Shown here piece by piece: positions 4,799 to 23,219 of a stretch of DNA of 35,583 nt (positions are counted from its first letter, which is position 1; the number at the start of each line of letters is the position of its first letter). The translations under genes and the position numbers were made by a program. The notes beneath the pieces were generated by a model. It was not told the origin of the DNA, searched no databases, and worked only from the letters and a program-made list of their open reading frames with translations. The DNA is taken from IMG/VR virus record IMGVR_UViG_3300042865_000086, positions 1 through 35,583 of that record, one strand, 5' to 3'. Source of the stretch: a virus.

Positions 4799-4989
4799 GG
4801 CAGCAAGCTATCTACATCTTGTAGTTCTGTCAATACTTTTGTTTCAGAGAAGTATTCATGGTATATCTTCATTCCTTCATTCCAGTAATTATCTGCGATA
4901 GAATATCTTTCTTTGTCGAAAGACTCCCAGATCGTCAGAGCAGCGTCCATGAGCCTAGATGATTTTGCGAATGCTTGGTCAGTTGTCAT
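4795..4989 (-). CDS. Small acidic hypothetical protein, 64 aa
   Basis: A 64-residue, mostly helical acidic protein (MTTDQAFAKSSRLMDAALTI), with aromatic residues in the middle and no motif I recognise. The ATG shares its first base with the last base of the helicase stop (TGATG), and its own stop overlaps the next gene by ATGA. It might be a helicase partner, inferred only from position. Confidence 0.65.
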   Translation of the reverse strand: MTTDQAFAKSSRLMDAALTIWESFDKERYSIADNYWNEGMKIYHEYFSETKVLTELQDVDSLLP

Positions 4990-6221
4990 CAGTATACCTC
5001 CTCTAGTTTGGAAATGTCACCACGCATGATGATTTCCGTTGTGTAGTTCCTCGCGCCACGGCGGTTCTTCTTGATCGTTAACATACTCTTAGTCTTGAAG
5101 TGTTCGACATACACTACTTGGTCAGAGTGCATCCCGATTGCCCGTGATTCGCGCAGTCTTCCCTCGTCGTTTAACTGGGAAGCAGTCAGCATAATCGAAT
5201 TATTCTTGAGTGCAGATACCTTTAACCGCCTTGCTATCTCGGAAATCTGCCCTTCTCGGCTGTCCGAACCATCATATGAGATGATTTGGAGGTAATCTAC
5301 TACAATCACATCTGCCCGTTTTTCCCCTGTGTATCGTGCGATATTGGCCTCAATCTCGGTGATTTCGGACACTCCGTCCACTATTTCGATGGGTAACTTG
5401 TGTAATCTTAGGAGTGCCGCGCTGATCGCCTTGAGTTCTCCTTGGTTTGCATTTTTGTAATCCTCTGGTTCGCGGATCGGGTAGCCTGCCATGTTACAAG
5501 CCATGCGGGTTAGGATGTCTTTAGCCTTCATCTCTAGTGAAAAGAATAAGACTGGCTTCCCATCTAGTAGATTTGCTAGGGCCGCTTGGACTAGGTAGAT
5601 GGATTTACCTCCTCCTGTTTCAGAAGCTACTGTCATCATCTCTCCTTTGTGCATCCCACCCTTGAGCGCACGATCTACTTTTATCATTCCAGTAGTAAAG
5701 CATTCGTTTACCGCTTTACCTTCCATCTCATCAATGATCTCAATGATCAGGTCTTTGACTGGTTTGACTTTTGTTGTCCGATCTTCAGCGCACTTCATTA
5801 TCGTTTCCGATAACGAGCGTAGGTCAGCCCTTCCTCCGCGAAGGTCATTCTCGGATTTCTCAATTATAGAGATGGCATCGCGGTAGCCTTTCATCTTGTG
5901 CAGATTCTTTCGGTAGTCATCAGCCATGTCTTGGCAGACCTTACCAGATGCGATCTTCATCGTAGCGAGGATGTCATGGACTTCGTTCTCACCACCAGCC
6001 GATTCTAGCTGACCCGTGGATTCTAGTTCAGCAATCGCCGAGAATTGACAGCAAGTGCCTGTCCGCTGGTGAACCCCTTGGAGTGCGTTAAAAACGATTC
6101 TGTGGGCAGGTAGCGCGAAATAATCGGCATCCCATGTTTGTTGGGAAAGGATATTTCGGTCTGTTGCTATCAGCGACAATGCTGCCGCTTCGCTCTTGTG
6201 TGCTATTGGGACTTTTTTCAT
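4989..6221 (-). CDS. dnaB: DnaB-type replicative DNA helicase
   Basis: 410 residues with both DnaB domains. The N-terminal helical domain (about 8-110) has SEAAALSLIATD and the FALPAHRIVFNAL helix. The RecA-like domain has Walker A SETGGGKS at 200-207, the FFSLEM strand at 226-231 and Walker B VIVVDYLQII at 305-314. It should unwind DNA at the fork. The gene directly upstream encodes an O-like initiator, the order seen in P22-like phages (gene 18, then gene 12). Palindrome site 3 lies near codons 137-142. Confidence 0.95.
   Translation of the reverse strand: MKKVPIAHKSEAAALSLIATDRNILSQQTWDADYFALPAHRIVFNALQGVHQRTGTCCQFSAIAELESTGQLESAGGENEVHDILATMKIASGKVCQDMADDYRKNLHKMKGYRDAISIIEKSENDLRGGRADLRSLSETIMKCAEDRTTKVKPVKDLIIEIIDEMEGKAVNECFTTGMIKVDRALKGGMHKGEMMTVASETGGGKSIYLVQAALANLLDGKPVLFFSLEMKAKDILTRMACNMAGYPIREPEDYKNANQGELKAISAALLRLHKLPIEIVDGVSEITEIEANIARYTGEKRADVIVVDYLQIISYDGSDSREGQISEIARRLKVSALKNNSIMLTASQLNDEGRLRESRAIGMHSDQVVYVEHFKTKSMLTIKKNRRGARNYTTEIIMRGDISKLEEVY
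5798..5813. promoter_or_regulatory. Palindrome site 3, inside the helicase gene
   Basis: TTATCGTTTCCGATAA, a full consensus match within the coding region of the DnaB helicase. There is no promoter-like element nearby, which is why a roadblock-type function is considered. Confidence 0.7.
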
Positions 6222-6225
6222 GAGG

Positions 6226-6936
6226 TTAAATACTGCAAAGTTTTTCTGGTTTTACTGTGTTCGTGGATCGGTTGATCCAGCCAGATAGGAATTGTTGGGT
6301 AAACTGGCGTTCTGGTTTGGCGAGTATCCAAGTCCGTGCCATTTGCACTTCCTTGTCCACGTCCTTGTCGGGGTTAAGGCGTTTGAGTTGGGTAATGAAA
6401 GCATCATCTACGAGTTTTGGTTTTCGTTTTGTTTTTGGTTTTATGGAAATCAAATCAATGGATTTTAAAAATGTTTGCTGTGATGGTTCTATTTTCGGTT
6501 CCTTATGATGATTCATTATAGAGAGACTAACCGGGGTTACCCCCACCACCCCCTGCAACGGGTTACCCCCTCCCCCACTAACACGGGTTACCCCCTCAAC
6601 TGACTTAATCCTGCTTGGTGCTATAACCTGTTGAATGACATCTCGACTGATTTCATCGCTACCAATCTTATCAACAATGATGGTGTAAATGTTCGATGTT
6701 TGCCTTCCAAAATGATCCTCTCGCTCATCTTTCGTAACTACTCCGACCTCAATCAAAGAATTCAAATACTTCTTCAAGATAGGTTCCGAGACATTCGCTT
6801 TTTCTGCTAGTTTCCGAATCGACGGCCAACAACTAGCATCGTCATTGCAGGAATCGGCTAGGGCAAGAAGAACCAATCTTGCATTTCCTTGAGTCCTGCT
6901 TTTCTCAAAGACCTCCGACATTATTCTAACACTCAT
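6226..6936 (-). CDS. O-like replication initiator with winged helix
   Basis: Start taken at MSVRIMSEVFEKS (6936): the in-frame extension to 7017 crosses a structured leader. The 236-residue product has a winged-helix domain at about 10-90, with LVLLALADSCNDD, CWPSIRKLAEKANVS and the recognition-helix region EPILKKYLNSLIEVGVV. A Gly-rich linker follows (114-135), then a C-terminal domain with WILAKPERQFTQQFLSGWIN. This architecture matches lambda O / P22 gp18-type initiators, where the N-terminal domain binds origin iterons and the C-terminal part recruits helicase. The linker is encoded by three DNA iterons, and the DnaB gene follows after 4 bases. Confidence 0.78.
   Translation of the reverse strand: MSVRIMSEVFEKSRTQGNARLVLLALADSCNDDASCWPSIRKLAEKANVSEPILKKYLNSLIEVGVVTKDEREDHFGRQTSNIYTIIVDKIGSDEISRDVIQQVIAPSRIKSVEGVTRVSGGGGNPLQGVVGVTPVSLSIMNHHKEPKIEPSQQTFLKSIDLISIKPKTKRKPKLVDDAFITQLKRLNPDKDVDKEVQMARTWILAKPERQFTQQFLSGWINRSTNTVKPEKLCSI
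6405..6600 (-). other. Candidate replication origin: iterons plus A/T-rich tract
   Basis: Three exact copies of GGGTTACCCCC lie at 6534-6544, 6560-6570 and 6585-6595, spaced 26 and 25 bases. On the coding strand they read GGGGGTAACCC, with similarity extending on the left and into a GTTAG-like right flank. Directly beyond, at about 6405-6530, the DNA becomes strongly A/T-rich with repeated short T runs. The order (iterons then an A/T-rich unwinding region, inside the initiator gene and ahead of the helicase gene) is that of the lambda ori in gene O. The repeats also encode Gly/Val residues, so selection on protein is a weaker alternative. Confidence 0.62.
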
Positions 6937-7147: not shown

Positions 7148-7516
7148 TTACTCTAGTTCAATTGTTGCAATGCCACCAGCAGACCAGTCCTCTAGCTTGT
7201 CGGTCAGAACCTCCCAGATATCATCGGCATCACTTTTGTTTTTGCATTTAAAAATTGAGCGGCGTTCTCCGACACCTTCACCAGCGATAATGAAATCACA
7301 CTTGATGACAGTATTGGAGTCATGGCCGCAGGCGACAATGATAGAGGTATTGTTTGGCTTGAGAGCCATCATCAGAATGCCTTCATCATTTTCGTAGGTA
7401 GCAATGAAGGGTTTTTCTAGCGCGGTGGCTAAAGACATATTTGTGACAAGGACAGTCTTTCTGACAGTAGCCAGAAGGTCTTCTGCAAATGTATTATCGT
7501 TGTTAGTGTTATCCAT
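7148..7516 (-). CDS. Hypothetical acidic protein in control region
   Basis: 122 residues, acidic, with alternating strands and helices and no motif I recognise. It starts MDNTNNDNTFAEDLL and ends DWSAGGIATIELE. It is transcribed divergently from the XRE-type regulator, from a promoter whose -35 box overlaps the regulator's. This places it in the genetic switch: possible roles are an anti-repressor or an early modulator, inferred from position only. A half-copy of the palindrome (TTATCGTT at 7494) sits in its first codons. Confidence 0.75.
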   Translation of the reverse strand: MDNTNNDNTFAEDLLATVRKTVLVTNMSLATALEKPFIATYENDEGILMMALKPNNTSIIVACGHDSNTVIKCDFIIAGEGVGERRSIFKCKNKSDADDIWEVLTDKLEDWSAGGIATIELE

Positions 7517-7577: not shown

Positions 7578-7907
7578 ATGAAACATCCATTAGAAGAAGC
7601 ATACGATAGCTGCATGATGGCTTACGAGCAATCACGCACTGTTCGTTCTATTGGACGGAGGACTTTCGCCCAGCAGTTACGTGAGACTCGAAAGAAACTG
7701 AGCATGACTGTCAGGGAACTGGGAGAAAGGATTGGAGTGACTGGCTCACTGATCAACCAGATTGAAGTAAACTCGAAAAGTATTTTAAAGAAAGAACAGG
7801 TAGATAAAGTAATTGGATTATGCTACAAAGAAAAACGCCCCTACAAAAAACAGGATTCAAAAAGCGAAGTGGAAAACTTAGATCAGTCTCAACCACTCGG
7901 AGAGTAA
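7578..7907 (+). CDS. XRE-family helix-turn-helix regulator
   Basis: A 109-residue protein with a Cro/CI-type HTH domain at about residues 30-75: TFAQQLRETRKKLSMTVREL, then GERIGVTGSLINQIEVNSKS. The TVRELGERIGV and SLINQIE helices match the classic turn. The flanks are polar, and there is no protease-sensitive C-terminal domain as in CI. It is read from the rightward promoter of the divergent pair with almost no leader. It is the best candidate in the window for the protein that binds the dispersed 16-bp palindromes. The last 88 bases overlap the next gene in another frame. Confidence 0.85.
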   Translation: MKHPLEEAYDSCMMAYEQSRTVRSIGRRTFAQQLRETRKKLSMTVRELGERIGVTGSLINQIEVNSKSILKKEQVDKVIGLCYKEKRPYKKQDSKSEVENLDQSQPLGE

Positions 7908-8134
7908 AGAATGCCGACTACGAAAAGGTCAAAGCAGAATACTTTGAAGAAAAAAACTACCAGTGTGAAATATGCAATGGGCAAGGAACAGACCTTCACC
8001 ATAAGAAAGGAAGGGGCAAGTTCCTATGTGACAAGTCCTCATTCATGGTTCTATGCCGCGCCTGCCACAACAAATGCCACCACGAAGTAGGGTGGGCAAG
8101 AGAGAATGGATATATAATTTATGACTACAAATAA
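7820..8134 (+). CDS. HNH-type zinc-binding nuclease-like protein
   Basis: 104 residues. The basic start (MLQRKTPLQKTGFKKRSGKL) is typical of small phage HNH/NinG-like proteins. Cys49/Cys52 (CEIC) and Cys79/Cys82 (CRAC) form a zinc site. His60-His61 in DLHHKKGRGK and His83/His87 in CHNKCHH form the HNH core. Such proteins process DNA branches or ends. The start overlaps the regulator gene by 88 bases in a different frame; the recognisable N-terminal motif argues that this overlap is real. Confidence 0.82.
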   Translation: MLQRKTPLQKTGFKKRSGKLRSVSTTRRVKNADYEKVKAEYFEEKNYQCEICNGQGTDLHHKKGRGKFLCDKSSFMVLCRACHNKCHHEVGWARENGYIIYDYK

Positions 8135-8348: not shown

Positions 8349-8520
8349 AACAATTTCGCAGGCAGGTGTAAAATTACCGGATGAGCGGTTTGGATTGGGA
8401 ATACTCGGTCGCCGCCACATCGAACTGGGGGAACGCTGGGTCGTTCATAAGTTTGGTAACCCCCACCTGAAAAGAGGATGCATACTCGTTCCTGCGTTAC
8501 CAATCTCCATTATCATCTGA
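8329..8520 (+). CDS. Possible small protein with TTG start
   Basis: A 63-codon frame opening at a TTG (8329), overlapping the previous gene by 20 bases and running 24 bases into the convergent terminase 3' end. It has a plausible soluble composition (LPDERFGLGILGRRHIELGE) and a hydrophobic end. There is no in-frame ATG start, so it may be spurious. An alternative 29-codon ATG frame begins at 8381. Confidence 0.33.
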   Translation: MKESWIKTISQAGVKLPDERFGLGILGRRHIELGERWVVHKFGNPHLKRGCILVPALPISIII

Positions 8521-10350
8521 TGAGTAAGAATCATCATCAGAGAAAGATTCGACTGGCTTTTCATCCCGCGCCCAGAATCGGTTAGTCGGGACAGCTTTAT
8601 CGTTTCCGATAAATACTAGTCCATTGCGCCTAGCCATTTCGAGCGCATAGATCAAACTATCACTCAAGTCGGGAGAGTAACCTGTTCTTCCCTTTAACTC
8701 GTCTTTAGTCTCAATGGCAATCTTCTTGTTTTTGATCGTGTATCTACGAAGACAAAGTTCCCTAGCCAGATCAGATGCAGGATCAACGCCAAAGAGAACA
8801 CGGCTCTTGAAAGCATGATAGCAAGAGTAGTAGTATTCAGATACCAACCTATCGTAAACATCCTTACACGGGCGTTTATCGACTTCAGCGGCGAGTCGAT
8901 CAGTAGGTTTACCCATAGACGATATAAGAGCGATAGAAGCACCAGAAGACTCAAATCGCAGCCACTCACGAATGATAGCCTGTCCAACTCGACCACCATC
9001 ACCGGAAACGTCCATACCGAACTTAGAAGGCTGGACGCCAGCGGCACGGCATAACTGAACAACTTCAGTAGCGAGTTGGATTTCAAACTCAGCGGCGGCA
9101 TTCGCGGATAACTGAATGACCTTCTGGCTCTCCAACCACATAACACGATTGCGAGTCCCGCGAACAAAGCCTAGCTTGGCAATGGTCAGAACGCATCGGT
9201 CTCCACCAATTGTGAAAGCGGTATCAAACCCGGCTACCTTGGTAAAACCTTCAGAATCCCAAAGGGGTTCTTCGTTTGTATCAGCATTACGGATCAGATC
9301 GGCGGTAAGAATCGTTTGAGCGAATCCAGACTTCGGCCACCAACCAATAGCGTTACGAACATAGTCGATAGCATTCTCGTCTCCATAACATTGTTTAAGC
9401 ATGATCTCCTGCTTCTTCCGATCCATGAGGAAAGGGAATGGAGATGGCTCGCTCGCAGGCGCGGCGAAGTTAGGAGAACGCATACCATTGTAGAACAAGC
9501 AAACGCCAGTTCCAGTCTCCCACTTGTCCATGTCTGGACTAACCGAATCGAAGTTAGATGCGCCACTAGGCATGGCCCAGCGGGTGTGAGGATTATCACC
9601 AGCAGATGGGTTTCCAATACCAATGAACGTCACATCATTGTTAGCAGATAAGTTAACCTTGGCGGTAATCGCGCCCAGTTCCATTTCGGGCAACTCATCT
9701 AGGGCTAACCTAACCCTATCATTCTTACGACCACGGGTAGTATCAATAGCCTTCTGACCCTCGTTACCTGACTGGAATGCTAGAGCCTTGATGGCATTTC
9801 GGTAATCCTTATCCTCATCGTTGGACGCGCCACCCCAAACAATCATGTGGCGATAGTCAATGAGCTTACCAAACTGAACGGCGGCACACTTCCAGAGCTT
9901 GGAGATGATACCCCAGATACGATCTTCGGAAGCACCGAGAGTAGTAGTAGCAACCCAAGACGAAGTGCAATGCGGGGCAGAACACCAATCGAGGTAAACC
10001 CAAAGACCAACAGGAAACGACTTTCCCATAGATGCCGCGCCAGCCAAACAAATATCTGTATTATTACAAAGCTCCTCAAGTGTCCTCAATAATTGGTTAT
10101 TGGTATAGCCGCGATTGTAGATAGAAACCTCAGTCGGCCATTGGAGTTTAACGGCATTGATGAAGTGTTCGTGCGGCGAGAGTAATTTAAAGTCAGAGAT
10201 ATTGATATTATGTTTAACACAATACTCTTTGCCATATTCACCACGGCTAATAGAGTAACAATATAATTCAATACCAAGGTCATCCATGTGTTCTGGGAAT
10301 TGAATCCCGTAGCGACGAATACCTTTGTTTGAAGAAAAAGCTCTTGACAT
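8497..10350 (-). CDS. terL: Terminase large subunit
   Basis: Start taken at MSRAFSSNKGIRRYG (10350), because the longer frame to 10656 runs over an oppositely transcribed gene. The 617-residue protein has the packaging ATPase (Walker A GAASMGKS 104-111; Walker B VRLALDE with Asp218-Glu219) and an RNase H-like nuclease with acidic residues Asp376 (AGFDTAFT), Asp447 (FGMDVSGDGG) and Asp564 (PDLSDSLIYA). An acidic Ser/Asp tail ends it. It cuts concatemers and drives DNA into proheads through the portal. It is on the opposite strand to the portal and capsid genes. Palindrome site 5 lies near its 3' end. Confidence 0.93.
   Translation of the reverse strand: MSRAFSSNKGIRRYGIQFPEHMDDLGIELYCYSISRGEYGKEYCVKHNINISDFKLLSPHEHFINAVKLQWPTEVSIYNRGYTNNQLLRTLEELCNNTDICLAGAASMGKSFPVGLWVYLDWCSAPHCTSSWVATTTLGASEDRIWGIISKLWKCAAVQFGKLIDYRHMIVWGGASNDEDKDYRNAIKALAFQSGNEGQKAIDTTRGRKNDRVRLALDELPEMELGAITAKVNLSANNDVTFIGIGNPSAGDNPHTRWAMPSGASNFDSVSPDMDKWETGTGVCLFYNGMRSPNFAAPASEPSPFPFLMDRKKQEIMLKQCYGDENAIDYVRNAIGWWPKSGFAQTILTADLIRNADTNEEPLWDSEGFTKVAGFDTAFTIGGDRCVLTIAKLGFVRGTRNRVMWLESQKVIQLSANAAAEFEIQLATEVVQLCRAAGVQPSKFGMDVSGDGGRVGQAIIREWLRFESSGASIALISSMGKPTDRLAAEVDKRPCKDVYDRLVSEYYYSCYHAFKSRVLFGVDPASDLARELCLRRYTIKNKKIAIETKDELKGRTGYSPDLSDSLIYALEMARRNGLVFIGNDKAVPTNRFWARDEKPVESFSDDDSYSSDDNGDW
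8597..8612. promoter_or_regulatory. Palindrome site 5, inside terminase gene
   Basis: TTATCGTTTCCGATAA, full consensus match, inside the 3' part of the terminase coding region (encodes part of FIGNDKA). Confidence 0.7.
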
Positions 10351-10371
10351 ATCAATAAGAAAATATATTTT
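10344..10371 (+). promoter_or_regulatory. Sigma70-like promoter before 10387
   Basis: TTGACA at 10344-10349, a 16-base spacer and TATTTT at 10366-10371. It would give a leader of about 9 bases for the gene at 10387. The -35 box overlaps the terminase start codon on the other strand. Confidence 0.5.
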
Positions 10372-10386
10372 CCGTGCAAAGGCAAG

Positions 10387-10767
10387 ATGAAACTGAAAAA
10401 CAAAAATCTCGCACCTGTCGGGGGCTGGTATTGGAAGTATGAGATCAAGCGTGATAAGCTCACGTTCCCAGCCATTGTTTACGGAAGCACATTCAATAGC
10501 TTGATTCAAAACATCCGAAAGGACTATACATCGAATGGAATCGAAGTTCCTGCCAATATCGAGCAGATGGTCGAAGATCAAACCTGCCAGCGTCAACCAA
10601 GTGATCGTTGCTGGTATAGCGATGGTCTCGGAGACAAGATCGCGCAGGCTATCCATACTGTGGCTGCAACCGCAGACAAGGTTTTAGGAACTAAACTAGA
10701 GCATAAAGCTCGCGGATGTAGTTCATGTAACAAGCGCAGGAATACTCTAAACAAAGTGTTATCGTAA
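10387..10767 (+). CDS. Hypothetical Cys-containing protein beside terminase
   Basis: 126 residues starting MKLKNKNLAPVGGWYWKYEI. It has a middle segment with two Cys (TCQRQPSDRC) and a C-terminal CSSCNKRRNTLNK, possibly a small zinc site with a basic end. It is divergent from the terminase large subunit with a 36-base gap, so a packaging partner such as a small terminase subunit is thinkable. I see no clear HTH, so this stays open. Its stop codon lies within palindrome site 6. Confidence 0.7.
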   Translation: MKLKNKNLAPVGGWYWKYEIKRDKLTFPAIVYGSTFNSLIQNIRKDYTSNGIEVPANIEQMVEDQTCQRQPSDRCWYSDGLGDKIAQAIHTVAATADKVLGTKLEHKARGCSSCNKRRNTLNKVLS

Positions 10768-18492: not shown

Positions 18493-20529
18493 ATGGCACT
18501 TACATTTAATCCTTTTACTGGAAAACTTGATTTTACTGGCAGTCAAGCAACTGCCGCAATCGGAGCGACAGGAGCAACTGGCCCATCTGGTGGCCCTACA
18601 GGAGCTACGGGAGCAACGGGCGAAGCAGGCGCAACAGGCTCTGGAAGCACAGGAGCAACTGGAGTTGCTGGTAGCGATGGATCGACAGGCGCGACTGGTG
18701 TTTCTGGATTAAATGGGGCGACTGGCGCGACAGGTGTTTCTGGGAATGATGGTGCGACTGGGGCAACTGGTGTTGCTGGTGCGGATGGGGCAACAGGCGC
18801 AACCGGAATCGGAGCTACAGGCGCAACTGGGCCTGCTGGAACAACTGCTCCTCTTTATCAAGCTACCTATTACAAAAGCGCAAACCAAAATTTAACAAAT
18901 GGGAGTACTGATATTACATTTGACCAAGATGCGGCTTGGAACAATGACAATGGATTAATTACGCATACGGCTGGATCAACAGATTTCGTAGTAGCTCAAG
19001 CTGGGCTTTATCAACTTGAGTTCACTCTCTCGGTAAATCCGAACGCAGCAACATGGAATGCCGCAAATAACAAAGTTGCCTCGATTGATATTACTCGTCC
19101 TCCAAATGCAGAACAAAATATTATTGGTCAAACTGCTAATACGGCTTCGGCTTCTTTTTACACGCAAAGCGTTGCTTCTACTTTCAAACTTGAGGTTGGC
19201 GATGTAATAAATCTTCGTCATTTCGCAAACTTCGCAACAGCAACTCCATTTGTGCAAGGAGTGTCAGCTACATTTGATCTTAACACATGGTTCTCTTGGA
19301 GACTTATTGCTTCTGGAACTCAAGGCTTGACAGGATCAACCGGGGCTACGGGCGTTGCTGGCGCGGATGGTGCTACAGGAAGCACTGGAGCCGCAGGTAA
19401 CGATGGAGCTACAGGAGCAACTGGTCTTGAAGGAGCCACAGGAGCTACAGGTATTGCTGGTGTAGATGGAGCGACTGGAGCTACAGGAACACAAGGTGAT
19501 GTCGGGGCAACTGGAGCCACGGGTGCTACTGGAATTGCTGGAGATATTGGTTCTACAGGAGCTACTGGTGTTGCCGGGTTAGACGGAGCAACAGGCGCGA
19601 CTGGCGTTGCAGGCGGTCAAGGCTCTACAGGCGCAACTGGCGTTGCTGGAACAGACGGAGCAACGGGAGCTACTGGTGCTACGGGAGTAGGAACACAAGG
19701 TGCAACTGGAGCCACGGGAGCAGGGGCAACTCCAACTGATATTCAAGTTTTTTCAACTCCGGGCGCATTTACTTGGACTAAACCACTCAACGCAAAAGCT
19801 GTCGAAATTGCTGTTATTAGTGGTGGTGGAGGTGGTGGTTCTGGACAAATGAGCGCGGCGGCATCTCCTGCATCTGGTGGTGGAGGCGGTGGTGCTGGAG
19901 CAAGAAACTTTGTTACCTTGCCAGCGTCATTGCTCGGAGTTTCAGAAAATGGAAATGTTGGATCGGGTGGCGCGGGTGGTGCATCTGTTACATCAGTTGG
20001 TCTTGGTATTAACGGATCGGTAGGAACTATTTCTAACTTTGGACTTTGGGCTTACGCCGACAGAGGAGGTAATGGAAATGGAGGTGGTGCTGGTGCTGGA
20101 GGTGGTGCTGGAGCGGGAGGAGGTCGAGCGATATTTACTGGCGGCACAGGAGCAAATGGATCAGCGACAGGCGCAGGAACAAATGCAGGATCAAATACAG
20201 GTGCTGGCGGTGGCGGTGGCGGTGGTGGTGGAACTCCGGGATCAGTATCAGCAGGAACTGGAGGCAATGGAGGATTATCAACTTTATATAACGGGTCAGC
20301 AACTGCGCCTGCCGCTGGCGCAAATGGGCCTGATGTTCCAACTGGCACTCCACTTAACTCTTCTGGTGGCGGTGGTGGCACAGCAAGTTTTTCAGCACCT
20401 GCAATGGCAGGAGGCAACGGAGGACTCTATGGCGCGGGTGGTGGTGGAGGCGGTGGCGGTAGCGGTTTTGCGTCTGGCAAAGGCGGCAATGGTTCGCAAG
20501 GAATTGTGGTTGTAACAACTTATTTTTAA
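18493..20529 (+). CDS. Collagen-like fibre with C1q-like and Gly-rich domains
   Basis: 678 residues. Order: short start [17 protein letters not shown]; collagen-like Gly-Ala-Thr repeats (24-116); a globular beta domain (about 119-274) resembling C1q/TNF folds, with [14 protein letters not shown] and [12 protein letters not shown]; a second collagen-like stretch (275-412); a strand leading with [10 protein letters not shown]; and a long Gly-rich region ending GIVVVTTYF. This is a trimeric surface fibre, probably for host or surface binding. The Gly-rich end is shared with the product at 21768-23219. Confidence 0.8.
18562..18840 (+). repeat. Collagen-type 9-base repeat tract A
   Basis: Tandem Gly-Ala-Thr-type codons (units like GGAGCAACT) encode the first collagen-like stretch of the fibre. 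Prone to length change by slippage or recombination with tracts at 19315 and 21876. Confidence 0.8.
19315..19728 (+). repeat. Collagen-type 9-base repeat tract B
   Basis: Second collagen-coding tract of the same fibre gene, following the C1q-like domain. Same repeat units as tract A. Confidence 0.8.

Positions 20530-21767: not shown

Positions 21768-23219
<1,452 letters not shown>

Follow-up and report, generated by a model that had tools for sequence, protein, structure and literature searches.

We analyzed the whole of IMG/VR virus record IMGVR_UViG_3300042865_000086, 35,583 bases in length and here called the window, and conclude that it very probably carries a two-module theta-type origin of replication within the gene for the phage's own initiator, in the part that encodes a disordered linker. 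Judged from its sequence, this is an intragenic iteron origin of the lambda/P22 type, and its iterons appear to follow that known kind. The second module, a directional array of the 9-mer GAACCRTMA, appears to be new (Table 1).

Table 1. Coordinates of the putative origin, its modules, and the genes that contain and adjoin it
Feature	Coordinates	Strand	Basis or remark
O-like replication initiator gene	6226..6936	(-)	236 aa from ATG at 6936; listed ORF reaches 7017
Winged-helix DNA-binding domain, residues 1-95	6652..6936	(-)	HTH_36 match and AlphaFold2
Iteron 1 (gene order), GGGGGTAACCCGTGTTA	6579..6595	(-)	Dyad TAAC-N4-GTTA, 22/22 relatives
Iteron 2, GGGGGTAACCCGTTGCA	6554..6570	(-)	Half-site; codon frame differs
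Iteron 3, GGGGGTAACCCCGGTTA	6528..6544	(-)	Dyad in 22/22 relatives
GAACCRTMA copy 1, GAATCATCA (GAACCATCA in most relatives)	6506..6514	(-)	One mismatch
GAACCRTMA copy 2, GAACCGAAA	6493..6501	(-)	One mismatch
GAACCRTMA copy 3, GAACCATCA, exact	6481..6489	(-)	No mismatch
A/T-rich T-run tract	about 6427-6476	(-)	Weakest 50 bp of the initiator gene
Initiator C-terminal domain	6229..6426	(-)	pLDDT about 74-83 over most; freely exchanged among relatives
DnaB-like replicative helicase, next gene	4989..6221	(-)	PF03796 1.9e-29, phrog_19 2.8e-52

The initiator gene and its three iterons

The initiator gene matches phrog_8540 (replication initiation O-like) at 2.5e-24, as well as phrog_1032 and phrog_391, and Pfam family PF13730 (HTH_36) at 9.9e-9. 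An AlphaFold2 model of the protein has helices and a two-strand wing over residues 1 to 100 (pLDDT about 67-92) and is disordered over residues 106 to 170 (pLDDT below 50). A PDB fold search returned only generic winged helices, DnaD-N 2v79 and Rep-DNA 5kbj among them, none at an E value of ≤0.001. As modeled, the disordered linker would be the stretch encoding both repeat modules, and in the window it is Gly-rich. The next gene encodes a DnaB-like helicase, as the initial annotation had stated. Just upstream of the initiator lies a 122-aa ORF at 7148-7516 (-) with no Pfam or PHROG match, and beyond it are divergent HTH (7578-7907) and HNH-like (7820-8134) genes. The structural region of the window includes genes for two long collagen-like proteins with Gly-x-y repeats (GATGATG), at 18493-20529 and 21768-23219 (+). 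An Rfam search of the window gave no match.

The initial annotation had described three exact repeats, spaced 26 and 25 bases, in the linker of an O-like gene, and both the coordinates and the PHROG and Pfam matches confirm this description. Exact copies of GGGTTACCCCC are found at 6534-6544, 6560-6570, and 6585-6595 (start-to-start spacing, 26 and 25) and are absent elsewhere in the 35.6-kb record. The repeats might be a mere DNA-level trace of a low-complexity peptide, an idea that the Gly-rich linker of the window favors. However, the three copies fall in codon frames 2, 0, and 2, so that the middle copy is out of frame with the outer two and the repetition cannot be put down to the encoded peptide. 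Synonymous nulls also speak against a peptide origin: in 2,000 synonymous-codon randomizations and 2,000 within-gene synonymous shuffles, a 9-mer or longer occurring three times within 100 bp was found 0 times, whereas the real gene has an 11-mer.

We compared the layout with those of the annotated ori-lambda and the P22 rep_origin. Like the window, lambda ori lies in an initiator gene (gene O), with inverted-repeat iterons in the linker and an unwinding element downstream (PMC7466680, PMC5043065). It differs in its four iterons at spacings of 20/24/23, in its A/T-rich tract, and in the use of P to load host DnaB. With respect to lambda ori proper (ATCCCTCAAAACGAGGGA-type iterons, 20/24/23), the window differs in the sequence, number, and spacing of its repeats, and the earlier remark that these are unrelated to the lambda iterons is thus borne out by sequence comparison. 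The P22 origin is located in gene 18, an O-like initiator with internal iterons, and is followed by gene 12 (DnaB-like), matching the gene order of the window. It differs in having four iterons of another sequence at 20, 24, and 23 bp and, downstream, a lambda-type ACAAAAGA repeat rather than GAACCRTMA. These layouts, the DnaB adjacency, and the relatives described below support the proposal in the initial annotation of an intragenic iteron origin with the lambda ori layout. A winged-helix protein bound within its own gene could also block transcription, and the repeats could accordingly serve the initiator gene as an internal operator, for autoregulation or silencing, instead of as an origin. 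We regard this as very unlikely given their mid-gene position beside a second array, the adjoining helicase gene, and the correspondence to the lambda and P22 layouts, for which an origin role is annotated or established.

Iteron types and the DNA-binding domain among relatives

A protein search of viral contigs yielded 29 and then 80 loci, from which 31 distinct close members were carried on. Three repeats with 25/26-bp spacing, the middle one in another codon frame, are kept in about 30 relatives (those examined). In relatives of types A and B, copies 1 and 3 contain GGGKTAAC-N4-GTTA in 22/22 cases, with an N4 that varies freely, and copy 2 is a half-site. This is the conserved core of the repeat. 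The 11-mer of the initial annotation holds as a set of exact copies in the window but not as the conserved unit, its “CC” being kept in only 8 to 9 of 22 outer copies.

In type C relatives, the recognition helix NISEETTRKFLHAF replaces NISEPITKKYLNAL and the iterons are TGAACCAGTTCATACC; most of them have an imperfect middle copy, which retains the other half-site. One further relative (L057), with the helix NINQQTTRKYLWAM, has by eye an apparent fourth repeat type. Across types C and D, a new repeat sequence goes with a new recognition helix. The initial annotation had raised the case in which relatives lose the repeats and keep the encoded Gly-rich linker, and we observed the opposite: types C and D have lost the Gly-rich linker, and the three repeats persist with the same spacing and frame pattern. 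Together, the frame shift, the codon nulls, and these relatives rule out the Gly-rich peptide as the source of the repeats, a reading to which we now give almost no credence.

Iteron distance follows the distance between DNA-binding domains (Mantel r = 0.93, p = 0.0005) and not that between C-terminal domains (r = -0.02); within types A and B alone, the corresponding values are 0.58 and 0.10. Three pairs of relatives (L007/L022, L008/L020, and L038/L052) have near-identical C-terminal domains and differ in both DNA-binding domain and iterons. A DnaB match was found for 22 relatives and is downstream of the initiator in 22/22. Over the part compared, DnaB is 99 to 100% identical in L022 and L023 despite their other iterons, and that of L023 (type C) is 99% identical to the window's. 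Because the iterons and the domain differ while DnaB is near-identical, the specificity half appears to have been exchanged with the helicase staying in place. Based on this covariation, we conclude that the iteron type is specific to its cognate DNA-binding domain.

The GAACCRTMA array

The second module occupies 6481-6514 and consists of one exact copy and two with one mismatch, 13 and 12 bp apart. It is the sole cluster of GAACCRTMA copies with ≤1 mismatch on either strand of the whole window. Directly after the iterons, the block ATAATGAACCATCATAAGGAACCGAAAATAGAACCATCA hardly varies between iteron types, and synonymous identity among the relatives is 0.93 in the array block, 0.82 in the iteron block, and 0.68 in the N-terminal part. 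With a G+C content of about one-half, the array is not classically A/T rich. Duplex stability falls after the iterons, where the GAACC array is conserved and the A/T tract is not. The initial annotation had noted an A/T-rich tract with T-runs beside the repeats. Its weak duplex is real, but it is not a conserved part of the origin, being present only in four near-identical relatives (L001, L002, L003, and L005), and we rejected it as a defining element; the GAACC array went unmentioned in the initial annotation. GC skew across the record has no clear minimum at the initiator (the overall minimum is near 18 to 19 kb), and third-position skews of the window's genes are noisy. The terminase-like gene at 8497-10656 (-) differs from most minus-strand genes left of 7 kb in the sign of its third-position AT skew, which is -0.45 on the coding strand; strand asymmetry of replication or a recent inversion could account for this.

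We then considered distant O-like genes, picked by N-terminal protein similarity alone and dereplicated to 70, a set in which Pseudomonas is heavily represented and whose members are not phylogenetically independent. In these 70 genes, exact GAACCRTMA occurs 88 times on the coding strand and 0 times on the reverse strand, compared with 6.9 in protein-preserving synonymous shuffles. The 88 sites span all three frames (52/24/12), and their gaps peak at 11 and 12 bp. Overall, array copies are 11 to 13 bp apart and always on the coding strand. Codon choice within EPS-type motifs is nearly fixed (GAA in 114/116, TCA in 94/96), whereas elsewhere in the same genes these codons account for 45% and 20%. 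The array is lacking or variant in 24 of the 70 genes. Enterobacterial O-like genes (L193, L194, and L149-L190) have apparent variants, TAACCAGTMA/GAACCAGTCA or GAYCCGTCA, and also GAACCAGTMA.

Array-bearing distant genes carry iterons unrelated to those of the window, and the gene that follows them encodes DnaB, a P-like loader, a DnaC-like loader, or a member of families without known function. Pseudomonas phage PseuP_224 and P. aeruginosa phages such as MD8 resemble the window in having the array in or at an O-like gene; in PseuP_224, the array comprises three exact copies at spacings of 11 and 12, and DnaB lies downstream. The iterons of these phages differ in that they are unrelated to the window's in sequence and number. 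Lambda and P22 offer a parallel to an array shared across iteron types, as their iterons differ but have equal spacing and are followed by a common downstream ACAAAAGA motif (CACAAAAGACAnTA-TACAAAAGA).

We scanned IMG/VR for two array copies 1 to 4 bases apart, with a scrambled pattern as a control. Among at least 121 sites listed, 94 were in ORFs with an O-like N terminus, all on the coding strand; the remaining 27 include several apparent truncated O genes as well as simple repeats. The scrambled pattern hit O-like genes 0 times among at least 120 sites listed. Since the profile for the O-like N terminus was built from our own initiator set, we compared ten of the weaker ORFs with PHROGs, and each of them matches a replication-initiation family. 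In bacterial genomes, the pattern occurred in 10 of 20, at one place each, 280 to 405 bp into a prophage initiator (placed by coordinates against protein-similarity loci); a backward-read control pattern occurred 0 times in the 20 genomes. The best 23 full-length phage matches to a 33-base array consensus (at least 84.8% identity) were all Pseudomonas phages, the matches being annotated mostly as replication O, primosomal I, or HTH. A plasmid set gave two full-length matches, both from P. aeruginosa. In several P. aeruginosa phage records (H41-H47), one end of the record lies no more than about 200 bp from the GAACC array, probably because of assembly breaks at the iterons. A search of the open-access literature for the array sequence found nothing relevant, and other searches brought up only lambda, Stx-phage, and plasmid origins; the array is apparently undescribed there.

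Domain exchanges among the relatives fall right at the GAACC block, as would be expected if it were mainly a recombination joint at which the DNA-binding/iteron half is swapped against the C-terminal half, and recombination would also homogenize the block. A joint, however, needs neither 11- to 12-bp periodicity nor a fixed strand, nor would it call for exact 9-mers in three frames across unrelated iterons, and the array is confined to a single place per genome, in every case within the initiator; we therefore think this explanation unlikely. Over the genes compared, most phage initiators of this broad O-like type prove to share the array, and we read it as a candidate specificity-independent element for unwinding or initiator binding.

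Proposed function and its implications

We infer that the initiator binds this DNA, that the duplex melts, that helicase is loaded, and that replication starts here. In module 1, the three iterons (full dyads flanking a half-site, 25/26 bp apart) would be bound by the winged helix and would set specificity, being inherited together with the winged-helix domain. Module 2, the directional GAACCRTMA array with copies 11 to 13 bp apart directly downstream, would form the start of the weak-duplex side. The iteron-bound initiator would bend and strain the DNA, and the array would open or be kept in single-stranded register by the initiator or by a conserved host factor, after which the phage DnaB from the next gene would be loaded. 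For such a role of the initiator, a comparison is offered by TrfA, the winged-helix initiator of RK2, which binds one strand of repeated 13-mers beside the iterons (PMC4081077). RK2 oriV resembles the window in combining a winged-helix initiator, iterons, and a separate repeated element (the DUE 13-mers) (PMC4081077) and differs in being a plasmid origin with 13-mers of another sequence and direct-repeat iterons.

Since the array is tied neither to iteron type nor to loading strategy, a conserved initiator surface or a conserved host factor remains as its reader. If the reader were not the initiator but a host factor, for example a nucleoid protein, RNA polymerase, or primase, this would fit the independence from iteron type and from the helicase strategy (DnaB, P-like, or DnaC-like). 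Yet the array is always inside the initiator gene and never elsewhere in the host genomes scanned, and to our knowledge it matches no familiar consensus (DnaA box, IHF), which also counts against a host reader; we consider this possibility plausible but less likely than not. We lean modestly toward the broader proposal that GAACCRTMA arrays are an undescribed common second origin element, strand specific and phased at 11 to 12 bp, which marks the unwinding and loading site across O-like initiators, whatever their iterons or loader (DnaB, P-like, or DnaC-like).

In this family, the specificity part of the origin, the iterons that swap with the DNA-binding domain, would be separable from the GAACC array as its general part. 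The relatives also provide natural cases in which domain and iterons were swapped together and the helicase was retained. Whether the array is read by the initiator or by the host becomes a testable question. The array may also serve as a sequence signature for locating origins in uncultured phages and prophages and, if the proposal is true, intragenic phage origins would be findable by sequence alone.
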